Shown one piece after another: positions 47,231-57,258 of a stretch of DNA of 64,000 nt (positions are counted from its first letter, which is position 1; every line of letters begins with the position of its first letter). A program made the position numbers and the translations under genes. Source of the stretch: Clostridia bacterium (GTDB lineage: Bacteria; Bacillota; Peptococcia; DRI-13; UBA5745). The DNA lies in the NCBI GenBank assembly GCA_018434325.1, contig JAHDPO010000010.1, forward strand, positions 1 to 64,000. The letters run 5' to 3'. The notes beneath the pieces are model-generated. The model was not told the DNA's origin. It searched no databases and saw only the letters and a program-made list of their open reading frames with translations.

Positions 47231-47249
47231 GAAATCAGGGGATGGGGCA

Positions 47250-48797
47250 ATGAGTGAAAATGACTTATTCTCCGTGCTTGAACTTTTTCCCTTGCCCATG
47301 GAGGTCTTTTTGCCTACAGGTCTCAGCCTGTTTGTCAACAAGGCCTTTTTGCAATTGTTTCATCTTCCCGGCCCCTCAATGATCGTCGGCAAGTTCAACG
47401 TTCTGCAAGACCCTTATATCAATCACAGTCTGGGCTTAACCGATTATTTGCGGCGGGTATTTGCCGGTGAGATACTTTCTGTTTACGACGTCAAGGCCCC
47501 TTTGCAAGAGCTGGACAGCCGATACCTGCCTGAGCAGCATGCAGCTCCGACAGATGAAATGTATCAGGAGATCACCTGTTTTCCCTTGTGGGATGAGAGC
47601 GGGACGCTGGCTTACGTGGTCGCCTTATTTAAGACGAAGCATATTTACCAATCAAGGCTGGATGCCATCAAGGCCAGGGAATATATTGACGCTCACTGGC
47701 TCGATGATTTTGACCCGGATAAGATTGCCGGGGCCGCCGGCCTCTCCCGTTATCATTTGGTGCGTTTATTCAAAAAATACATGGGCATGACGCCTTACAG
47801 TTATTATCAGGAGCTTAAGATTGAAAAAATCAAAGAGGCCTTAACAGATAGAAAATACAGCATCAGTCAGGCCTTTGCAGCCTGCGGCGCCGATTACAGC
47901 GGTCGCTTTGCCGAAGCTTTCAAAAAAAAGCTGGGCATGACGCCCTCTCAATACAGAAAAAGCTTGCCGGCTCAGACCGGCAAAAGCCAAGGGATTTTAG
48001 AAGAACGAAACTCCGGCAGCGGCAAGCCGGCTGGGCATGCTGCCTTCCCCACCGGTTTTGACCGGGAAAGGGAGGAAAGGCTTTATAAAACAATTCAGCT
48101 TTTTCCCTTGCCGATTCAAATATTTAATCCCAACGGCGATATCGTTTTTATCAATGAAGCGGTGCTGCAGACCTGGAATGTGGCGGATTCTTCGCTGATC
48201 CTGGACCGATATAACCTGATCAAGGATCCCTTTGTCAATGAGCAATTTGGTTTGCGGGACTATATCCGCAGGACTTTTCAGGGGGAAATCGTTCTGATTC
48301 CGGACATAAAGATTCCTCTGGAGAGCTTTTGGCAATGGTATAAGGCCCGAAGCCCTGTTTACGATGTGGAGGCAATTTATACCGACATCTTAAACTTTCC
48401 GGTTTTTGGGGAAACAGGCAAAATGGCTTACGTAGTCAGCGTCTTTTTTACCAGCAGAATCTACCGGGGTGAGCCAAATGTGGCCAAGGCCAAGGAATAT
48501 CTAGAAAACCGCTGGCGGGAAGAGTTTGATATAGCCAGGCTGGCGGCGGCGGTCTGTTTAAGCCCTGCTCACCTTGTGCGCTTATTTAAAAGGCATACGG
48601 GCATGACGCCGTATAGCTATTATCAGGAGATCAAGATAAAGCGGATTAAAGAAGCTCTGCGTGATAAAAACCTGAGCGTGGCCGAAGCCTTTGTGGCCTG
48701 CGGTTTTGATTACCTCGGCAATTCTGCCAGATTCTTCAGGGAAAAGGTAGGAATGACGCCATCCCAATACCGTAAACTGACGGAAGATAACAAATAG
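47250..48797 (+). CDS. Regulator with two tandem PAS-AraC units
   Basis: A 515-residue protein made of two copies of one regulator. Unit 1 has a PAS-like domain (about 8-130) and an AraC-type double helix-turn-helix (about 138-245); unit 2 repeats these at about 279-400 and 412-512. The two share ELFPLPMEVF/QLFPLPIQIF, DYLRRVFAGEI/DYIRRTFQGEI, HLVRLFKKYMGMTPYSYYQE/HLVRLFKRHTGMTPYSYYQE and GMTPSQYRK. The copies differ at many positions, so the duplication is old. ATG at 47250 with AGGGGATG upstream is preferred to a longer frame inside the transporter gene. It may control the neighbouring transporter. Confidence 0.88.
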   Translation: MSENDLFSVLELFPLPMEVFLPTGLSLFVNKAFLQLFHLPGPSMIVGKFNVLQDPYINHSLGLTDYLRRVFAGEILSVYDVKAPLQELDSRYLPEQHAAPTDEMYQEITCFPLWDESGTLAYVVALFKTKHIYQSRLDAIKAREYIDAHWLDDFDPDKIAGAAGLSRYHLVRLFKKYMGMTPYSYYQELKIEKIKEALTDRKYSISQAFAACGADYSGRFAEAFKKKLGMTPSQYRKSLPAQTGKSQGILEERNSGSGKPAGHAAFPTGFDREREERLYKTIQLFPLPIQIFNPNGDIVFINEAVLQTWNVADSSLILDRYNLIKDPFVNEQFGLRDYIRRTFQGEIVLIPDIKIPLESFWQWYKARSPVYDVEAIYTDILNFPVFGETGKMAYVVSVFFTSRIYRGEPNVAKAKEYLENRWREEFDIARLAAAVCLSPAHLVRLFKRHTGMTPYSYYQEIKIKRIKEALRDKNLSVAEAFVACGFDYLGNSARFFREKVGMTPSQYRKLTEDNK

Positions 48798-48810
48798 AAA
48801 GCAAGCCTTG

Positions 48811-48840
48811 CCTGCCGCAAATATGCGGTAGTTTTTTTAT
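48811..48840 (+). terminator. Terminator after the tandem regulator gene
   Basis: CTGCCGCA pairs with TGCGGTAG across AATA, followed by seven T. Confidence 0.85.
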
Positions 48841-48867
48841 GATCATTTTTGAATAAATTTCAGCCAC

Positions 48868-48898
48868 CAGCCGCTATTGCGGCCTTTTTGTTTTTTAT
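48868..48898 (+). terminator. Second terminator in tandem
   Basis: GCCGC pairs with GCGGC across TATT, followed by TTTTTGTTTTTT. It lies 40 bp before the next gene. Confidence 0.75.
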
Positions 48899-48937
48899 AA
48901 GATAAAGATAACCAGAATCAGGCAAAGGCGAAAGGCG

Positions 48938-49435
48938 GTGATTATTCTGAAACAGGAAAAATTGGTGGAACAGCTTTTTCTTGAGTTTCTCTCCATGGAA
49001 AGGGATGTAAAAAAAGAACTGGTTGCTCAGGAGAGCTTTATCAGGCAGTTTCAAGCTTTGGCGCAAAAGGATAAAGGCGACTTGCCGATCATCGATTATC
49101 TTTCCTGTCCGGTGGCAATTTTTGAAAGGGGCGGCGTTATCTGCAAAGCAAACCGCATGCTCCTTGAAAAAACTGACTTGCCCCGGACCGGTATAGGCGG
49201 GGCAAAAATCAACTTCTTGGACCGCATCACGGATGAAAACTATTCTCTTATGGAAGCAGCCGAAAGTGTGTTTTATGGCAAGACCGCACTTTTAAGCCGC
49301 CTTTCCTGCCTGCTGGCGCTGTTTTGCCGCAGCTGGAATTATTCGGTTGACCAGGATTATCACAGTGCTTTACTTTTTCCCCTGCCCGATGGCGAGGGCC
49401 GGATTTTGTGGGGCGTTGTCATGCTGATGCAATGA
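48938..49435 (+). CDS. PAS-like single-domain protein, unknown
   Basis: A 165-residue cytoplasmic protein starting at GTG, with a helical N terminus (about 1-40) and a PAS-like core (about 47-160: DYLSCPVAIFERGGVICKANRMLLEKT and later HSALLFPLPDGEGRILWGVVML). It has the style of the PAS-like part of the upstream tandem regulator, with no DNA-binding domain. It is the first gene after two terminators and leads into the lipoprotein and SLH-protein genes (20 and 30 bp spacing), so it may sense something for that operon. Confidence 0.6.
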   Translation: MIILKQEKLVEQLFLEFLSMERDVKKELVAQESFIRQFQALAQKDKGDLPIIDYLSCPVAIFERGGVICKANRMLLEKTDLPRTGIGGAKINFLDRITDENYSLMEAAESVFYGKTALLSRLSCLLALFCRSWNYSVDQDYHSALLFPLPDGEGRILWGVVMLMQ

Positions 49436-49455
49436 AATAAAAGGAGATGAAATAG

Positions 49456-50778
49456 ATGAACTATCGATTTGTTAAATTGATCCCCTTTCTGCTGGTGTTG
49501 TTCATTATAACCGCCTGCGGACAAAGCGCAGAAAAAACAGGCTCCCAGGGAGCGGCGTCAGAGCCTGCGTCTGAAACGCAAAGTATCCCCGACCTGCCAA
49601 ATCCTCCGTCGCAGGAAGACTGGCCGGCTGACCTTGCTCCCGCCGAGCTGCCTGAGTATACCGCGGGGACGGTTACAGCCTCGGCAGTGGACAGTGAGGG
49701 TGTGCTGACCATTAAGATCACGGATACGAACAAGTCCGACCTTTATGTCTACATAGGAAAGCTGCAAAGCAGCGGCTGGAACGTGACCTCCAATGATGAC
49801 GAGGCCGAAGCGCTGCTGGGCCTTTATTCGGCAACCTTTGTTTTGCAGGGAGCGGACAAAACCGTCCTCCAAATCGATGTTTATACTGAGGAAGCCGGCA
49901 GCTGGCCTGCCGAGGCAATCCCGCCCGTTGTGCCCGAGCCCGGGGCCGGCGTTTTGGTGGGTCAGGTTGAGGTTTTGTCGGCGGTGGAAAATATGTGGTA
50001 CTTTGACTACACCTACGACGGCATTGATGAGGCCGCCGCTGAGGCGTATATGAACAGCCTTACCGAAAAGGGCTGGAGCGGCGACGCTTACCAGATGTAT
50101 AAAGCCTTTGAATGGAAAGGCAAGAGCTATGAGGCTACCATCGAGATCTATGAAACGGTGGCGGACCGAACCACCTTTACCTGCAACTTTTATCTGAGCG
50201 CCGCCGAGCCGGCAGCCCAAACGGAGCCAACCTCCGCAGCTGCCACCGAGAGCACCGCAGCATCGGCTGAGAGCACGGAAGCTCCGTTGGAGGGAACGGA
50301 GGCTTCGACCGAGGGAACGGAGGTTTCAACCGAGGGAACGGCTTCGCCCAAGGGCGCGGACGCTTCGGCGAAAAGTGCGGATACTTCGGTAGTTGGCTCT
50401 TGGACCCTAGGCATGCTGTCGGGCGGGCAGTTCAACGCCGGCACGGGAAAATATGAGGGCGGCGCCTCCGGCATGGGGCAAATCTACACCTTCAAGCCGG
50501 ATGGCACCTACACGGCGCTGGTCGTCTTTGGCGATACCATTTGGTTTACCGGCAATTACAGCGTGGCGGGTGATTTGCTGACGCTGACCGGCCGGACTGT
50601 AGAGGAAAGCAAGGACGGCGGCAAGACTTGGGGCGCGCCGGAAACGCTGCCCGATGCGTCGGCCTATTTTGTTGCCGGCAAGGATGATAGCGGGACATAT
50701 CTGCTGCTTGGCCAGGAGGGGGAGAAGCCGCCTCTTGAGGATAAGAAAAACGCAATGAAATACAGCCGGAAAAACTGA
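49456..50778 (+). CDS. Lipoprotein with low-complexity linker, unknown
   Basis: A 440-residue lipoprotein with lipobox FIITAC (Cys about 21). Two similar stretches lie at about 60-155 and 165-250. A linker of about 60 residues is rich in Ser, Thr, Glu and Ala with tandem EGTEASTEGTEVSTEGT units (24-bp DNA repeats). The C-terminal domain (about 315-440) starts VVGSWTLGMLSGG and looks lipocalin-like (DUF-type). I do not recognise a named function. It is 30 bp upstream of the giant surface-protein gene, so it may help its assembly or anchoring. Confidence 0.75.
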   Translation: MNYRFVKLIPFLLVLFIITACGQSAEKTGSQGAASEPASETQSIPDLPNPPSQEDWPADLAPAELPEYTAGTVTASAVDSEGVLTIKITDTNKSDLYVYIGKLQSSGWNVTSNDDEAEALLGLYSATFVLQGADKTVLQIDVYTEEAGSWPAEAIPPVVPEPGAGVLVGQVEVLSAVENMWYFDYTYDGIDEAAAEAYMNSLTEKGWSGDAYQMYKAFEWKGKSYEATIEIYETVADRTTFTCNFYLSAAEPAAQTEPTSAAATESTAASAESTEAPLEGTEASTEGTEVSTEGTASPKGADASAKSADTSVVGSWTLGMLSGGQFNAGTGKYEGGASGMGQIYTFKPDGTYTALVVFGDTIWFTGNYSVAGDLLTLTGRTVEESKDGGKTWGAPETLPDASAYFVAGKDDSGTYLLLGQEGEKPPLEDKKNAMKYSRKN

Positions 50779-50808
50779 TCAGCTAAAACAAGGAAAGGAG
50801 AAATTGCT

Positions 50809-53800
50809 ATGGCAACACATATCTCAAAAAGCAGAAGAATTCTGGCGGCCGTGCTGGCGGTTTGCATGCTGCTATCCCTGTGGCCTGCCGCCGTGGGAGC
50901 CCAGGAGGTTTTGCCGGAAGGCGGCCCACTAATGATTGATACGGAGAAGCTTGAGGGTGCAGACGGAGAGGAGAAGATACCGCCGCCGGCTGCCGCAGGC
51001 CCTGGAGAAGAATTCGGCAAGCCAGAGAATCAAGGGCAGCCGGCAGGTTTTGAAGGGGTGCTGTTTTTACAGGCTGACTTCGGGCCGATGGCTATTGGGG
51101 ACGATGACGTCTGCGCCATTGGCGAACAAGGCTATGACAGCCTTGAGGCTGCTCTTGCGGTTGTGACTGAAGGCGGTACCATCGACATCCTTAAGGATAT
51201 CACCCTGACGACATCTCTGACTCTCGAAAAAAGCGTTACCCTTACTTCAGCAACCAGCTCTACACTGCATGCAGACAATCGTACGATTAAGATTGCTGCG
51301 GGGAAGTCGGTTGCCTTGCAGGGCAATCTTGCAGTCGACGGCAGCGCATCACCTGTCATTGAGGTGTTCGGCAGCTTTGCCCTCAACGGTGACGCTTCGA
51401 TAATCCATACGAGTACAAATGATTATGTATTTGCCATCTATAACAGAGGTGGTATGGTGACCATCAATGATGGTAGTGTTACGGGTGTTTATGGGGGAAT
51501 TTCCAATGAAGCCGGCGGCACACTTACCGTAACCGGCGGCACGGTGACAGCTCCTGAGACTGCAATCGACAGCGAGGGGAGCTTAAGCGTCTTCGGCGGC
51601 AGCATCGGCAGCGCCGCCTCGAAACAAGGCATCCGGGTAATGAGCGGCACAGCACTCATTGAAGGCGGCACCATCAGCGGCAAGGATTTTGCTTTGACCA
51701 TAAACGGAGCGGCTACAGAAGCCAATGTCTCCGGCGGCAGCTTTAGCGTCGCTGATGTGTCCACCGGCCATGCCCTGCGCTGCTCGGGAGGAACCACAAC
51801 CCTGACCGGCGGCAGCTTTAACGGCAGGGTGGCGACCACCTCAAACGGCTCCCTGCACATCAACTGCGGTACGGGCAGCAATTCTCCGGTTATCTCCGGC
51901 AGTGTGGGGTATTCGTATAGCGGACAGCACCAGCAATTTTTCACCACCCTGCCGGCTGATCTGCCAATCCCGGTAGTACAAGATGAGGAAACCACGGTTA
52001 ATCTGGGAGGGATGGCCACGTCGCTAACCTATATAATCGATGGGGCGACGGATGAGGCGCTAGGCGCCGAGCCGGCCGGTACAGGCCCTGCAGCCGTTGT
52101 AAAGCTGCAGCCTACAGCAACGGGTAATTTCAACCTGGTTCTGACGCCCTCGGGAATCTCCGCCGGCCAGTCCCTCAAGCTGACATTGCCGGTGACGGTA
52201 ACGGCGGCGAGTACGGATACGGTAATAGACATTGCGGCGATTTCGGGCGTTACCGCTCCGGTGGTTGGCCAGGCTCCGGTCACCTCGATTACAGCCACAG
52301 AACAGTATAGCGGCAGTGTTTCCTGGACGCCGGCGGTGAGCACCTACTTTAATGCCAATACCGCCTACACGGCCACCATCACCCTGACGCCCAAAGCCGG
52401 CTATACCTTGGCGGGCGTGGCGGCAAACTTTTTCACGGTAGCGGGCGCCTCGCCGGTAAGCAACGCCGCCGGTTCCGGCGTGATTACAGCTGCCTTCCCG
52501 GCTACCGGATCTCTGCCTGTATACGTCTGCGAAGTATCGACGACGCCTGCGGCAACCAAATATGAGTCGCTGGCCCAGGCAGTGAACGCGGCAGCGGACG
52601 GCCAGACCATCACAATGCTCAAGAGCTTCGACCATATTACTGATACAGCGGCAAAGGTTATCAAAATCAATGGTAAGTCTATCACTTTCAATTTGGCGGG
52701 ATATACTTTAAATATAGGGGACAATAGTGTCAGTGCGGCGCTTGTTGTGGAAAACGGCGGCAAGCTGGAGCTATTTGGCGTATCGGGAGAATTGAATGTC
52801 ACCGCTTACGGTAATGCGGTTGAAGTGACAGGCGCCGGCTCCGCCGCCACGGTCACTAATGCCACCAGCATCAATAACAGCGCGGTAAGGGTGACAGGCG
52901 GCGGTCAGGTCACTGTACGGGGCGATGCCGAGGGTAAAATCCACGCGATCGCTGCCGGAGGTGCCTCCGATGCGCTGGGAAGCACTGTCACTGTGGGCGG
53001 CAATGCGATAAATACAGATAATGACCGCACTGTAATAGCGGCAGCCAAAGGCTCAAAGGTTACGGTGGAAGGAAACGTGACCACCACGGGCACCGCGGGC
53101 ACCGGCGGTAGGGGAGTGGATGCGCTTGATCCGGGCACCGAGGTGCATATTAAGGGCAGCGTAGAGGGGCGATTCTATTTCTGCGTGGACGCAAGCGAAT
53201 CAGCCCAGGTCATAGTAGATAACAATGTGATCTCAACATTTGCAAATACCCATGCGTCCTATGGCGTAAGGGCGCAGACCAAAGCTCAGGTCACGGTAGG
53301 GGGCAATGTCCAGGTTAATTCCAACCAATACAGTGTGGGCGTATGGGTAAAGAGCTTGTCTGGCAAAACCCCGACGCAGGTGGCGGTGGGGGGAACCATC
53401 AGCGGCAAAACCTATGTCAAGCTGGATGAAACGGAGAAGACGGAAGCCCAGAAAGAAGTTGAGAGCACCTTGGCCGGCTACCACACCTACACCCTGAGCA
53501 ATACCCAAGGCACCCACACTGTCTGGGTGAAAGATACCTCAGCTCCCGCCAATGCCTGCTCCATCGGCGGCACAGAATACGCCTCGCTGGCGGCAGCCCT
53601 TGGGGCAGTGCAGACCGGGGAAACCAAGACCATCAAGCTGCTGAAAAATATTGATTACAATGGCGGCATCATCTTGGGCAATAGCGAAAATAAACATATC
53701 ACCTTTGACTTAAATAGCTTCACGCTGAATGTAGTAAACAGCGGCGGCCCGGGAGTCTCCGTCACCGAGGGCAGCAGTGTCGATTACGTGGACAATACTG

Positions 53801-56800
53801 CCTCTCCGGGAACGTTTAACGTCACCGGCAGGGAGTGCGGCGTCAGGGCTTGGTATGGCGACGTCAAAGTGAGCAACGCCACCGCAACGGCGCCTTCCAC
53901 AAACAATGACGCGCTTAGTTACGGTGTATACGCCCGCTATGGGGCCCAGGTTACGGTGAACGGCAATGCCAGCGGCAAAAAATTCGGAGCCTACGCCGAT
54001 TCGGGCTACGGCGGCAAAAGAACGAAGGTTGTCGTCGTCGGCGATGCCATAGCGGAAAATGTCAATAACAATTTTAACCCAAGAATCGGGGCCAATGCCA
54101 CCAACTATGCGGATATTGAGGTGGCCGGCAATGCTTCCGGCGGCTGGATCGGCGTTGCTGCAGAAAGCAGCAGTACGGCCAAGGTGGGCGGCAAGGCTAC
54201 CGGCGGTATGTACGGCGCTTATGCAGATCTGAATAGCAGCACCGAAGCAGGGGCGGCTGAGGCCACGGGACAATACGGGGCTGCCGCTTATAATGGCAAT
54301 AATGACTCTTCTGTTCTCGTCAAGGGCAATGCTGTCGCCCATCCGTTAAACGGCATCGGAGCCGTGGCCAATGCAGGCAATATCACCATAGACGGCGTAA
54401 TCACAGCGCCCATCTACGTGAGAACCGGATCGACCGATAAAAATGCCGGCGAATACACGGTTGACGGCAGCAAACCCGGCTATCGCAAGTACAGCGATGG
54501 CACAGCCACCGTTTGGGTGAAGGAAGCAGCACCTGGAAATATCTGCGCTATCGGCAGCAAAGAGTATACTACTCTAATGGCAGCTATCACCGATGCCAAC
54601 GCCGCCGGCAGCCCCCAGACCATCAGGCTGCTGCGGAATATCACGGAAAACCAGGAGATCACCATTACCGGTGATATCACCTTCAATCTGGACGGTTACA
54701 ATCTTACGATTGATACCAGCGCCGAAAACGGCTCTACCGCCTTGTATGTAAATGGTGGCAAAGTAAATTATAGTGGCAATGGCAGATTTGATGTTATCGG
54801 CAACTTTTCCAGCGTGCGGGCCGACGGCTCAGGGGCCTCCGCCACAGTTAGCTACGCTGAATCCACAACGGGCAGTGCCTATAACGTACAGGCGGGAGCG
54901 GGCGGCAAGGTTGTTGTCAAGGGCAATGCCCTGTGCCGCAGCGCCGGCAGCTACGGGCTGAGAGCCGTTTCAGGCGGCAATATCACCGTGGAAGGCGCTG
55001 TCCTATGCTTGGGCGAAAACAGCTGGGGCGTATATTCCACCGGCAGCGGTAGTATAGCCACCGTGAAAGGCGGCGTGACAGCAGCAGCCGTTGGCGATGG
55101 CAGCACCGGCGTTAACGCCAATAACGGCGGCAAAGCCGATATCACCGGCAATATCACGGCCAGCGAAGTCGGTGTCACCGCTTACGGCACGACTGCCACT
55201 GAAGTAACCGTAACCGGCAGTGTGACGGTGGAAGGGCCGGACAGCGCAGGCATCAGCATCGGCGGCGGCAGCACAGTCACCGTTACCGGCAACGTAACGG
55301 TTAAGGGCTCCGGCTGTACCGGGCTTGCCGCCAACAGCGGCAACATCCGAGTCGGCGGCAAGCTGGAATCGGAGGGTCTTGGCGCAGAAACCACCAATAG
55401 CGGCACCATCACCGTTGACGGTGTATTCACAGCGTCAGGCAGCTACGTAAAGGTAGGCGGAATCATTAAGGGCGCCGGTGAAAATGAAGCCGCAAGTTCC
55501 ACCCCTGGCTATAGGGAATACAAGAATGGCGGCAACATCGTTTGGATCAAAGAGACCTCAGTTATTGTGCCGCCTGCGGTACTGACGGGGCCGGTGACCA
55601 GCCTGACCGCCACCGGAGCCACCCTCTCCGGTACGATGACCTCCGACGGCGGCGGAGCGGTTACGGAAATCGGCTATGTTTACGGCGCCTCGCCAAACCC
55701 GGTGATCAGCGGGTCAGGCGTTTCCAAGATGACTTTGGGCAATTCCTATTCAGGCCCGTTTACGATTTCGATTACCAGCCTTACTTCTAACACGACTTAT
55801 CATGTCCGGGCCTATGCTAAAAACAGCGCAGGAGTTGCTTACGGAGCCGATGTTAGCTTCACTACCCTGCCTGCAGCGCCGGCAACCTACCTGGTCACTG
55901 TCAACGGCAGCTACGCTTCGCCTACTGGCGCGGGCACCTATGCTGCAGGCGCCACCGTAAGCATCCATGCCGGCAGCCGCACGAGCTATACCTTTACCGG
56001 CTGGACCTCTCCCGATGTGACGATTAGCAATGCCGCCGGCACAGACGCCAGCTTCACCATGCCGGCCAAGGCCGTCACCGTGACCGCAGGCTGGAGTTAT
56101 AACGGTGGTGGTGGAGGCGGCGGAGGCGGCGGTTCAACGGCGCCTTCTGCACCGACCTATAATGCAGACGTAAAAGAAGGAACCGGTACCGAAACGAAGC
56201 TTCCGGTCACGGTCAATGCAGAAAACGGAACAGCAGTCATCGATACGGGCGTCGGAAAGCTCACTTCAGGCGATACGGTTGTTACGATGCCCTCGATTCC
56301 GGGCGTTGATATCTATACTGTTGGTATACCGGTTCCCGATCTGTCAACATCGGATGCTCAAGGCAGCCTGATCGTCGAAACCGGTAACGGCAGCATCACT
56401 GTCCCCTCAAACATGCTGACGGGTATTCCGGAAATCAGCGGCAGCAAAGCTCAAGTCTCCATTGGCAAGGGAGATAAGAGCGCTTTGCCGGAGGACGTCA
56501 AAGCTGCCATCGGTGACAGACCATTGATTCAGCTCACCCTATCCATCGACGGCCAGCAAACCAACTGGTCTAATCCCGGCGCGGCGGTAACGGTAAGCAT
56601 CCCCTACACCCCGACGGCAGCGGAGCTGGCAAATCCCGAGAGCATTGTGATATGGCACATCGATGGCGCCGGCAATGCCGTAGCCATTCCTAACGGACGC
56701 TACGATGCGGCAACGGGAACAGTGACCTTTGCTACTACTCACTTCAGTTATTATGCAGTAACTTATCACAAAGTGAGCTTTAGCGATGTAGCTGCGGAGG

Positions 56801-57258
56801 CGTGGTATCACGATGCGGTGAGTTTCCTCGCAGCAAGAGGCATTACCGGCGGTACGGGCAATGGCAAATACAGCCCCGACGCCAGGCTCACCCGCGGCGA
56901 ATTCATCGTCATGCTGATGCGTGCCTACGAAATCGCCGCCGATGTAAACTACACGGATAATTTCTTCGATGGTGGCAACACCTGGTACACCGGCCATCTG
57001 GCGGCAGCGAAGCGGCTGAGAATTACCGCAGGTGTGGGCAATAACATGTACGCTCCGGCCAGAGCGATCACCCGTCAGGAGATGTACGCTTTGCTGTATA
57101 ACACCCTCAAGGCCCTTGACAAACTACCTGCCGCCAACTCCGGTAAGATACTCTTCGATTTTAGCGAAGCCGGCGGCTCAGGCGAAGCGCTGCAGCCTGA
57201 CGCTGCGGCCACGAGGGCGGAGCTGGCCCAGGCGCTTTATCATCTGCTGACAAAGTAA
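50809..57258 (+). CDS. 2149-residue modular surface protein with C-terminal SLH domains
   Basis: A giant exported protein anchored to the cell wall by three C-terminal S-layer homology (SLH) motifs (about 1988-2149; VSFSDVAAEAWYHDAVSFL, TRGEFIVMLMRAY, RQEMYALLYNTLKALD). A signal peptide covers about 1-33. Four modules begin with an Ile/Cys-rich block followed by a YxSLxxAL-type segment (about 98, 571, 914 and 1243) and continue as Gly/Asn/Val/Thr-rich beta-helix-like repeats with endings such as VWVKE. Then come a fibronectin-like domain (about 1590-1690), a small repeat domain (about 1690-1765), a run of ten Gly and another globular region. AAAGGAG lies ahead of the ATG. It is likely an adhesin or S-layer-associated protein; no catalytic motif was seen. 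Confidence 0.9.
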   Translation: MATHISKSRRILAAVLAVCMLLSLWPAAVGAQEVLPEGGPLMIDTEKLEGADGEEKIPPPAAAGPGEEFGKPENQGQPAGFEGVLFLQADFGPMAIGDDDVCAIGEQGYDSLEAALAVVTEGGTIDILKDITLTTSLTLEKSVTLTSATSSTLHADNRTIKIAAGKSVALQGNLAVDGSASPVIEVFGSFALNGDASIIHTSTNDYVFAIYNRGGMVTINDGSVTGVYGGISNEAGGTLTVTGGTVTAPETAIDSEGSLSVFGGSIGSAASKQGIRVMSGTALIEGGTISGKDFALTINGAATEANVSGGSFSVADVSTGHALRCSGGTTTLTGGSFNGRVATTSNGSLHINCGTGSNSPVISGSVGYSYSGQHQQFFTTLPADLPIPVVQDEETTVNLGGMATSLTYIIDGATDEALGAEPAGTGPAAVVKLQPTATGNFNLVLTPSGISAGQSLKLTLPVTVTAASTDTVIDIAAISGVTAPVVGQAPVTSITATEQYSGSVSWTPAVSTYFNANTAYTATITLTPKAGYTLAGVAANFFTVAGASPVSNAAGSGVITAAFPATGSLPVYVCEVSTTPAATKYESLAQAVNAAADGQTITMLKSFDHITDTAAKVIKINGKSITFNLAGYTLNIGDNSVSAALVVENGGKLELFGVSGELNVTAYGNAVEVTGAGSAATVTNATSINNSAVRVTGGGQVTVRGDAEGKIHAIAAGGASDALGSTVTVGGNAINTDNDRTVIAAAKGSKVTVEGNVTTTGTAGTGGRGVDALDPGTEVHIKGSVEGRFYFCVDASESAQVIVDNNVISTFANTHASYGVRAQTKAQVTVGGNVQVNSNQYSVGVWVKSLSGKTPTQVAVGGTISGKTYVKLDETEKTEAQKEVESTLAGYHTYTLSNTQGTHTVWVKDTSAPANACSIGGTEYASLAAALGAVQTGETKTIKLLKNIDYNGGIILGNSENKHITFDLNSFTLNVVNSGGPGVSVTEGSSVDYVDNTASPGTFNVTGRECGVRAWYGDVKVSNATATAPSTNNDALSYGVYARYGAQVTVNGNASGKKFGAYADSGYGGKRTKVVVVGDAIAENVNNNFNPRIGANATNYADIEVAGNASGGWIGVAAESSSTAKVGGKATGGMYGAYADLNSSTEAGAAEATGQYGAAAYNGNNDSSVLVKGNAVAHPLNGIGAVANAGNITIDGVITAPIYVRTGSTDKNAGEYTVDGSKPGYRKYSDGTATVWVKEAAPGNICAIGSKEYTTLMAAITDANAAGSPQTIRLLRNITENQEITITGDITFNLDGYNLTIDTSAENGSTALYVNGGKVNYSGNGRFDVIGNFSSVRADGSGASATVSYAESTTGSAYNVQAGAGGKVVVKGNALCRSAGSYGLRAVSGGNITVEGAVLCLGENSWGVYSTGSGSIATVKGGVTAAAVGDGSTGVNANNGGKADITGNITASEVGVTAYGTTATEVTVTGSVTVEGPDSAGISIGGGSTVTVTGNVTVKGSGCTGLAANSGNIRVGGKLESEGLGAETTNSGTITVDGVFTASGSYVKVGGIIKGAGENEAASSTPGYREYKNGGNIVWIKETSVIVPPAVLTGPVTSLTATGATLSGTMTSDGGGAVTEIGYVYGASPNPVISGSGVSKMTLGNSYSGPFTISITSLTSNTTYHVRAYAKNSAGVAYGADVSFTTLPAAPATYLVTVNGSYASPTGAGTYAAGATVSIHAGSRTSYTFTGWTSPDVTISNAAGTDASFTMPAKAVTVTAGWSYNGGGGGGGGGGSTAPSAPTYNADVKEGTGTETKLPVTVNAENGTAVIDTGVGKLTSGDTVVTMPSIPGVDIYTVGIPVPDLSTSDAQGSLIVETGNGSITVPSNMLTGIPEISGSKAQVSIGKGDKSALPEDVKAAIGDRPLIQLTLSIDGQQTNWSNPGAAVTVSIPYTPTAAELANPESIVIWHIDGAGNAVAIPNGRYDAATGTVTFATTHFSYYAVTYHKVSFSDVAAEAWYHDAVSFLAARGITGGTGNGKYSPDARLTRGEFIVMLMRAYEIAADVNYTDNFFDGGNTWYTGHLAAAKRLRITAGVGNNMYAPARAITRQEMYALLYNTLKALDKLPAANSGKILFDFSEAGGSGEALQPDAAATRAELAQALYHLLTK

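Follow-up and report, generated by a model that had tools for sequence, protein, structure and literature searches.

Does a regulator that carries two complete PAS-AraC units in one polypeptide occupy two DNA half-sites by itself, and which genes would such a protein control? The question is raised by a gene in the window (the whole stretch of 64,000 nucleotides analysed here) which a reading of the sequence alone had described as encoding a 515-residue chain of two tandem units, each with full helix-turn-helix (HTH) regions. Domain make-up, conservation of both units, gene order, operator-promoter architecture and half-site divergence were computed in this study; binding and control are predicted from them.

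Two units in one chain

The frame at 47250-48797 runs from an ATG to a TAG without internal stops. Residues 1-243 and 270-515 of its product align without gaps over 235 positions, with 46% identity (E 7e-84). In Pfam searches HTH_18 was matched twice (2e-45) and HTH_AraC four times (5.5e-28), all above cut-off, and the protein has the two-HTH DNA-binding domain of about 100 residues that characterises the AraC/XylS family. PAS models gave matches below cut-off only (PAS_8, 17.7 bits against 21.8), so that in this case it is the structure match that places the sensor parts in the PAS superfamily. The AlphaFold2 model, built with 26 sequences (mean pLDDT 82), comprises two mixed alpha/beta PAS-like and two all-helical AraC-like domains with a low-confidence linker, and Foldseek matched these domains to PAS sensor structures and to AraC DNA-binding domains, including AraC 2k9s. 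Reading frame, likeness of the units, Pfam and AlphaFold2 thus agree, and the original description of the chain and of its HTH regions stands. The features discussed below are collected in Table 1.

Table 1. Features of the tandem regulator locus (window coordinates)
Feature	Coordinates	Strand	Basis and remarks
Tandem PAS-AraC regulator gene	47250..48797	+	515 aa; ORF calling, Pfam, unit self-alignment, AlphaFold2
Unit 1 PAS-like domain	47256..47657	+	Profile match, AlphaFold2, Foldseek
Unit 1 AraC DNA-binding domain, two HTH	47655..47963	+	Pfam, AlphaFold2; dN/dS 0.09 vs L001 (rough)
Linker, about 36 residues, disordered, unconserved	47964..48071	+	pLDDT <50 at residues 244-270; 40% identity to L001
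Unit 2 PAS-like domain	48072..48473	+	Profile match, AlphaFold2, Foldseek
Unit 2 AraC DNA-binding domain, two HTH	48471..48779	+	Pfam, AlphaFold2; dN/dS 0.04 vs L001 (rough)
Intrinsic terminator after regulator gene	48812..48838	+	8-bp stem and T run; conserved in L001
Predicted operator half-site 1, promoter-distal	48840..48859	+	Gapless alignment, 19 loci
Predicted operator half-site 2	48861..48880	+	CTAT 48874-48877 overlaps -35; doubles-only matrix
Predicted -10 box TAAGAT; spacing to operator constant	48898..48903	+	TAnnnT at offset 49-54, 19 loci
Stand-alone PAS protein of 165 aa; its gene opens the predicted target operon	48938..49435	+	C66 paralogue, PAS fold, position shared by many loci
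Lipoprotein, weak DUF6591 match	49456..50778	+	21.8 bits, below cut-off of 27.1
Giant surface protein with SLH domains, 2149 aa, predicted end product of operon	50809..57258	+	Pfam SLH 6e-20

The predicted target operon and its operator

Gaps of 20 and 30 nt separate the three genes that follow the regulator, and these are preceded by ribosome-binding sequences; 48938-57258 is therefore probably a single operon. The product of the first, which had been called a stand-alone PAS-like protein, has no match in Pfam; its structure model nevertheless shows a PAS fold in Foldseek, in agreement with that description. DUF6591 lipoproteins scoring above cut-off stand at the place of the second gene in two other loci (L152 and L156), and the order regulator, stand-alone PAS protein, lipoprotein (with DUF6591 in several cases) and surface protein is a common one. 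An SLH protein was present in the fetched stretch at 12 of 24 regulator loci against 1.3 expected (P 8e-11), or against 2.9 if each SLH match is counted as a gene of its own (P 1.4e-6), both P values assuming independent loci although some are related. Some loci without SLH have other secreted proteins (L117 and L162, for example). On C66, a second contig of the same genome, a PAS-AraC gene with one unit precedes the genes for a stand-alone PAS protein and a giant SLH protein; the contig also has a further regulator with an extra Xis-like HTH. The giant SLH orthologues are unequal in length, that of L121 (11861-16222) having 1453 aa against the 2149 aa of the window's, which suggests fast turnover of repeats in the cargo.

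On the other side, a Na/Pi symporter gene lies upstream of the regulator, as had been pointed out. A role tied to phosphate transport did not hold up: in the sister genome (L001) the two genes are separated by 143 bp with a terminator-like hairpin, and the other loci encoding doubles lack such a neighbour. The link was therefore rejected and the transporter is taken as an incidental neighbour. In the window the corresponding gap (47231-47249) is 19 nt long; a deletion may have brought the regulator within reach of the promoter that serves the transporter.

The sequence-only reading had proposed that a direct-repeat operator be sought at 48800-48937, between regulator and operon. Gaps downstream of regulators share a gapless element, GC-9 bases-ACTAA and AGC-9 bases-CTAT, with a -10 box of the form TAnnnT 20 nt further on; from this spacing, the second half-site covers the -35 position. 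Among loci that are partly related to one another, the element holds 18.7 bits over 30 bases, compared with 12.8-13.4 in eight dinucleotide-shuffled sets, and untrained sites in front of cargo genes scored 30.1 (L208), 24.7 (L224) and 18.5 bits (L205), each ranking at the top of its own locus. The window site (48849-48878) reached 21.6 bits with a matrix made from four other doubles, a score attained in 0 of 400 shuffles. With the general matrix it was weak (5.9 bits, 5 of 400 shuffles) and fell outside the top five in the 64-kb window. Several single-unit loci, mostly those with a fused Xis-HTH, are without the motif. A plain sigma-70 scan of the window gap returned no promoter; the -35 hexamer there lacks consensus, and the predicted half-site stands in its place. 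A Gibbs search of width 42 was discarded, having locked partly onto T-rich tracts, and a terminator-like hairpin at 48870-48883 is probably a chance structure, as it overlaps half-site 2 and its pairing is lost in L001 (GCCGCTATTGCAGT).

How alike the two half-sites are depends on the type of regulator. At an offset of 21 bp they are 47% identical in single-unit loci (n=8; null 29%, P<0.0005) and 43% in loci with a pair of adjacent single genes (n=6; P 0.04), whereas in doubles (n=6) identity is 24% with a null of 25%; the samples are small, and the doubles form a single clade, so that their divergence counts as one event. This comparison indicates that the half-sites of single-unit regulators form a true 21-bp direct repeat and that those of doubles have become unlike. 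The proposed operator was thus recovered in part: two predicted half-sites 21 bp apart are present in the window gap, but they do not repeat each other in sequence. Since they are unlike, each unit of a double may read its own half-site; on a simple reading, two copies of a single-unit protein would need similar half-sites and a fused pair with diverged units would not.

The model that we favour, and consider probable, is that of a local class-II-type activator of the surface operon downstream. The regulator would activate the genes for the stand-alone PAS protein, the lipoprotein and the giant SLH surface protein, its AraC domains binding the two half-sites and the promoter-proximal one overlapping -35, whereby RNA polymerase would be recruited as by AraC at araI1-araI2. 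Two copies of a single-unit relative would occupy two similar half-sites. In the window a single chain is the most likely occupant of both, given that its units are fused and diverged; it would span them by means of the flexible linker, with each unit on its own half-site. The earlier suggestion that such a chain could bind two half-sites by itself would fit this anatomy. The PAS domains are the likely modules for signal and pairing. Since the stand-alone PAS protein is made from the operon's first gene, it probably exerts feedback on the regulator, which it may do through PAS-PAS contact.

PAS domains commonly dimerise, and this is one ground for a different arrangement, a dimer of two double chains in which two of the four AraC domains would remain unbound or contact DNA at another place, as happens when DNA is looped. 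AraC, a class-II-type activator at araI1-araI2, also loops between araI1 and araO2 (PMC4760080). Against such a dimer, just two half-sites are conserved at each promoter, even for doubles, and the terminator occupies the space immediately upstream. Moreover, the operator pattern has one match within two mismatches in the 3.8-Mb genome, a count that shows uniqueness and is not independent support, the pattern being drawn from the window site itself. We regard the dimer of doubles as possible but rather unlikely. A bolder version of the single-chain activator, which we would put forward as speculative and doubt more than we believe, makes the chain an obligate pseudo-heterodimer in which each unit has its own signal and its own distinct half-site: a homodimer on a direct repeat would have turned into a two-input switch of the surface coat, with feedback built in through the stand-alone PAS protein.

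The overlap with -35 would also suit a steric block, the double acting as a repressor that keeps RNA polymerase out until a signal releases it. This seems improbable, however, in view of the missing -35 consensus in the window, of the position of the site, which ends at the point where an activator contacts polymerase, and of the precedent set by AraC-type regulators that have a surface protein as neighbour, for instance EbrB, which act as activators (PMC3669262).

Conservation, origin and spread of the tandem form

The window regulator has a likewise fused orthologue, 78% identical, in L001 (L001 and G008 appear to be one record). Between the two, dN/dS was 0.12 for the PAS and 0.09 for the AraC domain of unit 1, 0.14 and 0.04 for those of unit 2, and nominally about 1.2 for the linker, all rough values because synonymous sites are near saturation. 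These figures indicate that both AraC DNA-binding domains are kept under purifying selection. One unit per chain is enough in single-unit relatives, and it might be argued that in the double, too, activity is confined to one unit while the other is a degenerate duplicate; but with both units under purifying selection, four HTH matches kept across them, confident folds in both and the doubled form maintained in several families, we judge this highly improbable.

A profile of the PAS part was searched against 398 sampled Bacillota genomes and then against further genomes around two of the positive ones. The family was present in 18 of the 398 and in more genomes around those two; neither plasmid nor phage homologues turned up. 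Relatives with one unit, which the sequence-only reading had recommended looking for, are widespread in Bacillota, as are adjacent pairs of single genes. The window-type double occurs in eight genomes (those of the window, L001, L147, L148, L149, L164, L205 and L206). In a tree of 62 units all first units fall in one clade (99/100) and all second units in another (100/99), L164 having very long branches and an uncertain position; this points to one duplication that is old, having taken place before the gene reached its present range of at least six families. An error of assembly or sequencing that joined two genes, a worry expressed at the outset and conceivable insofar as adjacent single-gene pairs exist, some overlapping by 4 nt, has a negligible probability: the same chain, uninterrupted by any stop between the units, is found in L001 and six further genomes from several families, first and second units belong to separate clades, and the double of L149 sits in a genome of one 3.4-Mb contig, which by itself makes a joining error very unlikely.

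Two adjacent single genes with the 4-nt overlap are seen in L209 and L222. In G505 such an adjacent pair is fused, and in the tree both halves group with the separate genes of its congener G506. Compared with G506, the first gene seems to have acquired a 7-bp tandem duplication close to its end, by which the two genes would have been joined. The G505 fusion is recent and separate from the window type, with a sequence error there being possible. That fusion occurred on two separate occasions suggests that the units work together.

Other arrangements were observed in the family. A Xis-like HTH is fused in frame to PAS-AraC in L002, L147, L158, L160, L205 and L213; elsewhere a small frame of this kind overlaps the PAS-AraC start in another frame (L149, 8846-9025; L153, 9838-10053; L091, 9242-9772; L210, 8584-8826), where translational coupling or frameshifting is possible. 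A PAS-only fragment (L093 7812-8342, contig C22) ends, and an AraC-only fragment (L092 1557-1898, contig C49) begins, at one and the same point of the unit. Both are nearest to unit 1; one adjoins ParA/ParB-like genes, and an IS200-type transposase is found close to the other. The two fragments may be the halves of one broken gene. The single-unit regulator modules of L152 and L213 are almost identical, yet they come from two families (f103 and f15, respectively), and a recombinase-like gene lies close to the L213 module; this suggests that the module was transferred horizontally in recent times.

Relation to known regulators

Neither the AraC nor the PAS domain is new, nor is the principle of placing a regulator next to a surface-protein gene. 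A literature search that took in few subscription journals yielded no tandem PAS-AraC protein, no paper joining AraC with S-layer homology and none on DUF6591; what is new with respect to that literature is the tandem form with its co-diverged operator. Because single, paired and fused states coexist in the family, each with its own operators, the transition from homodimer to fused heteromer is directly testable, and the response of the DNA site to fusion of its regulator can be traced in the same proteins. The model also offers a prediction for the control of giant S-layer-type proteins in uncultured Bacillota, which make up a large and uncharacterised class.

At araI1-araI2 the spacing is 21 bp and araI2 overlaps -35. 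AraC at these sites resembles the window regulator in its two-HTH domain, in the operator layout predicted for the latter (two half-sites spaced by about 21 bp, of which the proximal one lies at -35), and in the likely role of activator; it has an arabinose-binding domain, whereas the window regulator has PAS domains, two complete units per chain and unlike half-sites. PocR (Salmonella, Lactobacillus reuteri) likewise combines a PAS-like sensor with an AraC DNA-binding domain, but as a single unit with metabolic targets, and the NCBIfam PocR model matched only the AraC part of the window regulator, with 92 bits against a cut-off of 500. VqmA of Vibrio cholerae (PDB 6ugl, 6kju), a Foldseek match, likewise couples a PAS sensor in the cytoplasm to a DNA-binding domain; it differs in the type of that domain, in being a single unit and in having a known autoinducer ligand.

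Few bacterial regulators besides the AraC proteins recognise direct repeats, a task for which a symmetric dimer must break its symmetry (PMC9723621). In Enterococcus faecium the AraC-type protein EbrB activates and controls esp, the adjoining surface-protein gene (PMC3669262). Like EbrB and other YSIRK-adjacent regulators of TIGR04094, the window regulator is of AraC type and stands beside a large surface-protein operon (the SLH gene; enrichment P ≤1.4e-6 if loci are taken as independent), the control of which is predicted here and established for EbrB. Its score against TIGR04094 is 66.8 bits, below the cut-off of 200, its cargo is SLH-anchored where theirs is of YSIRK type, and it carries PAS sensors and tandem units.
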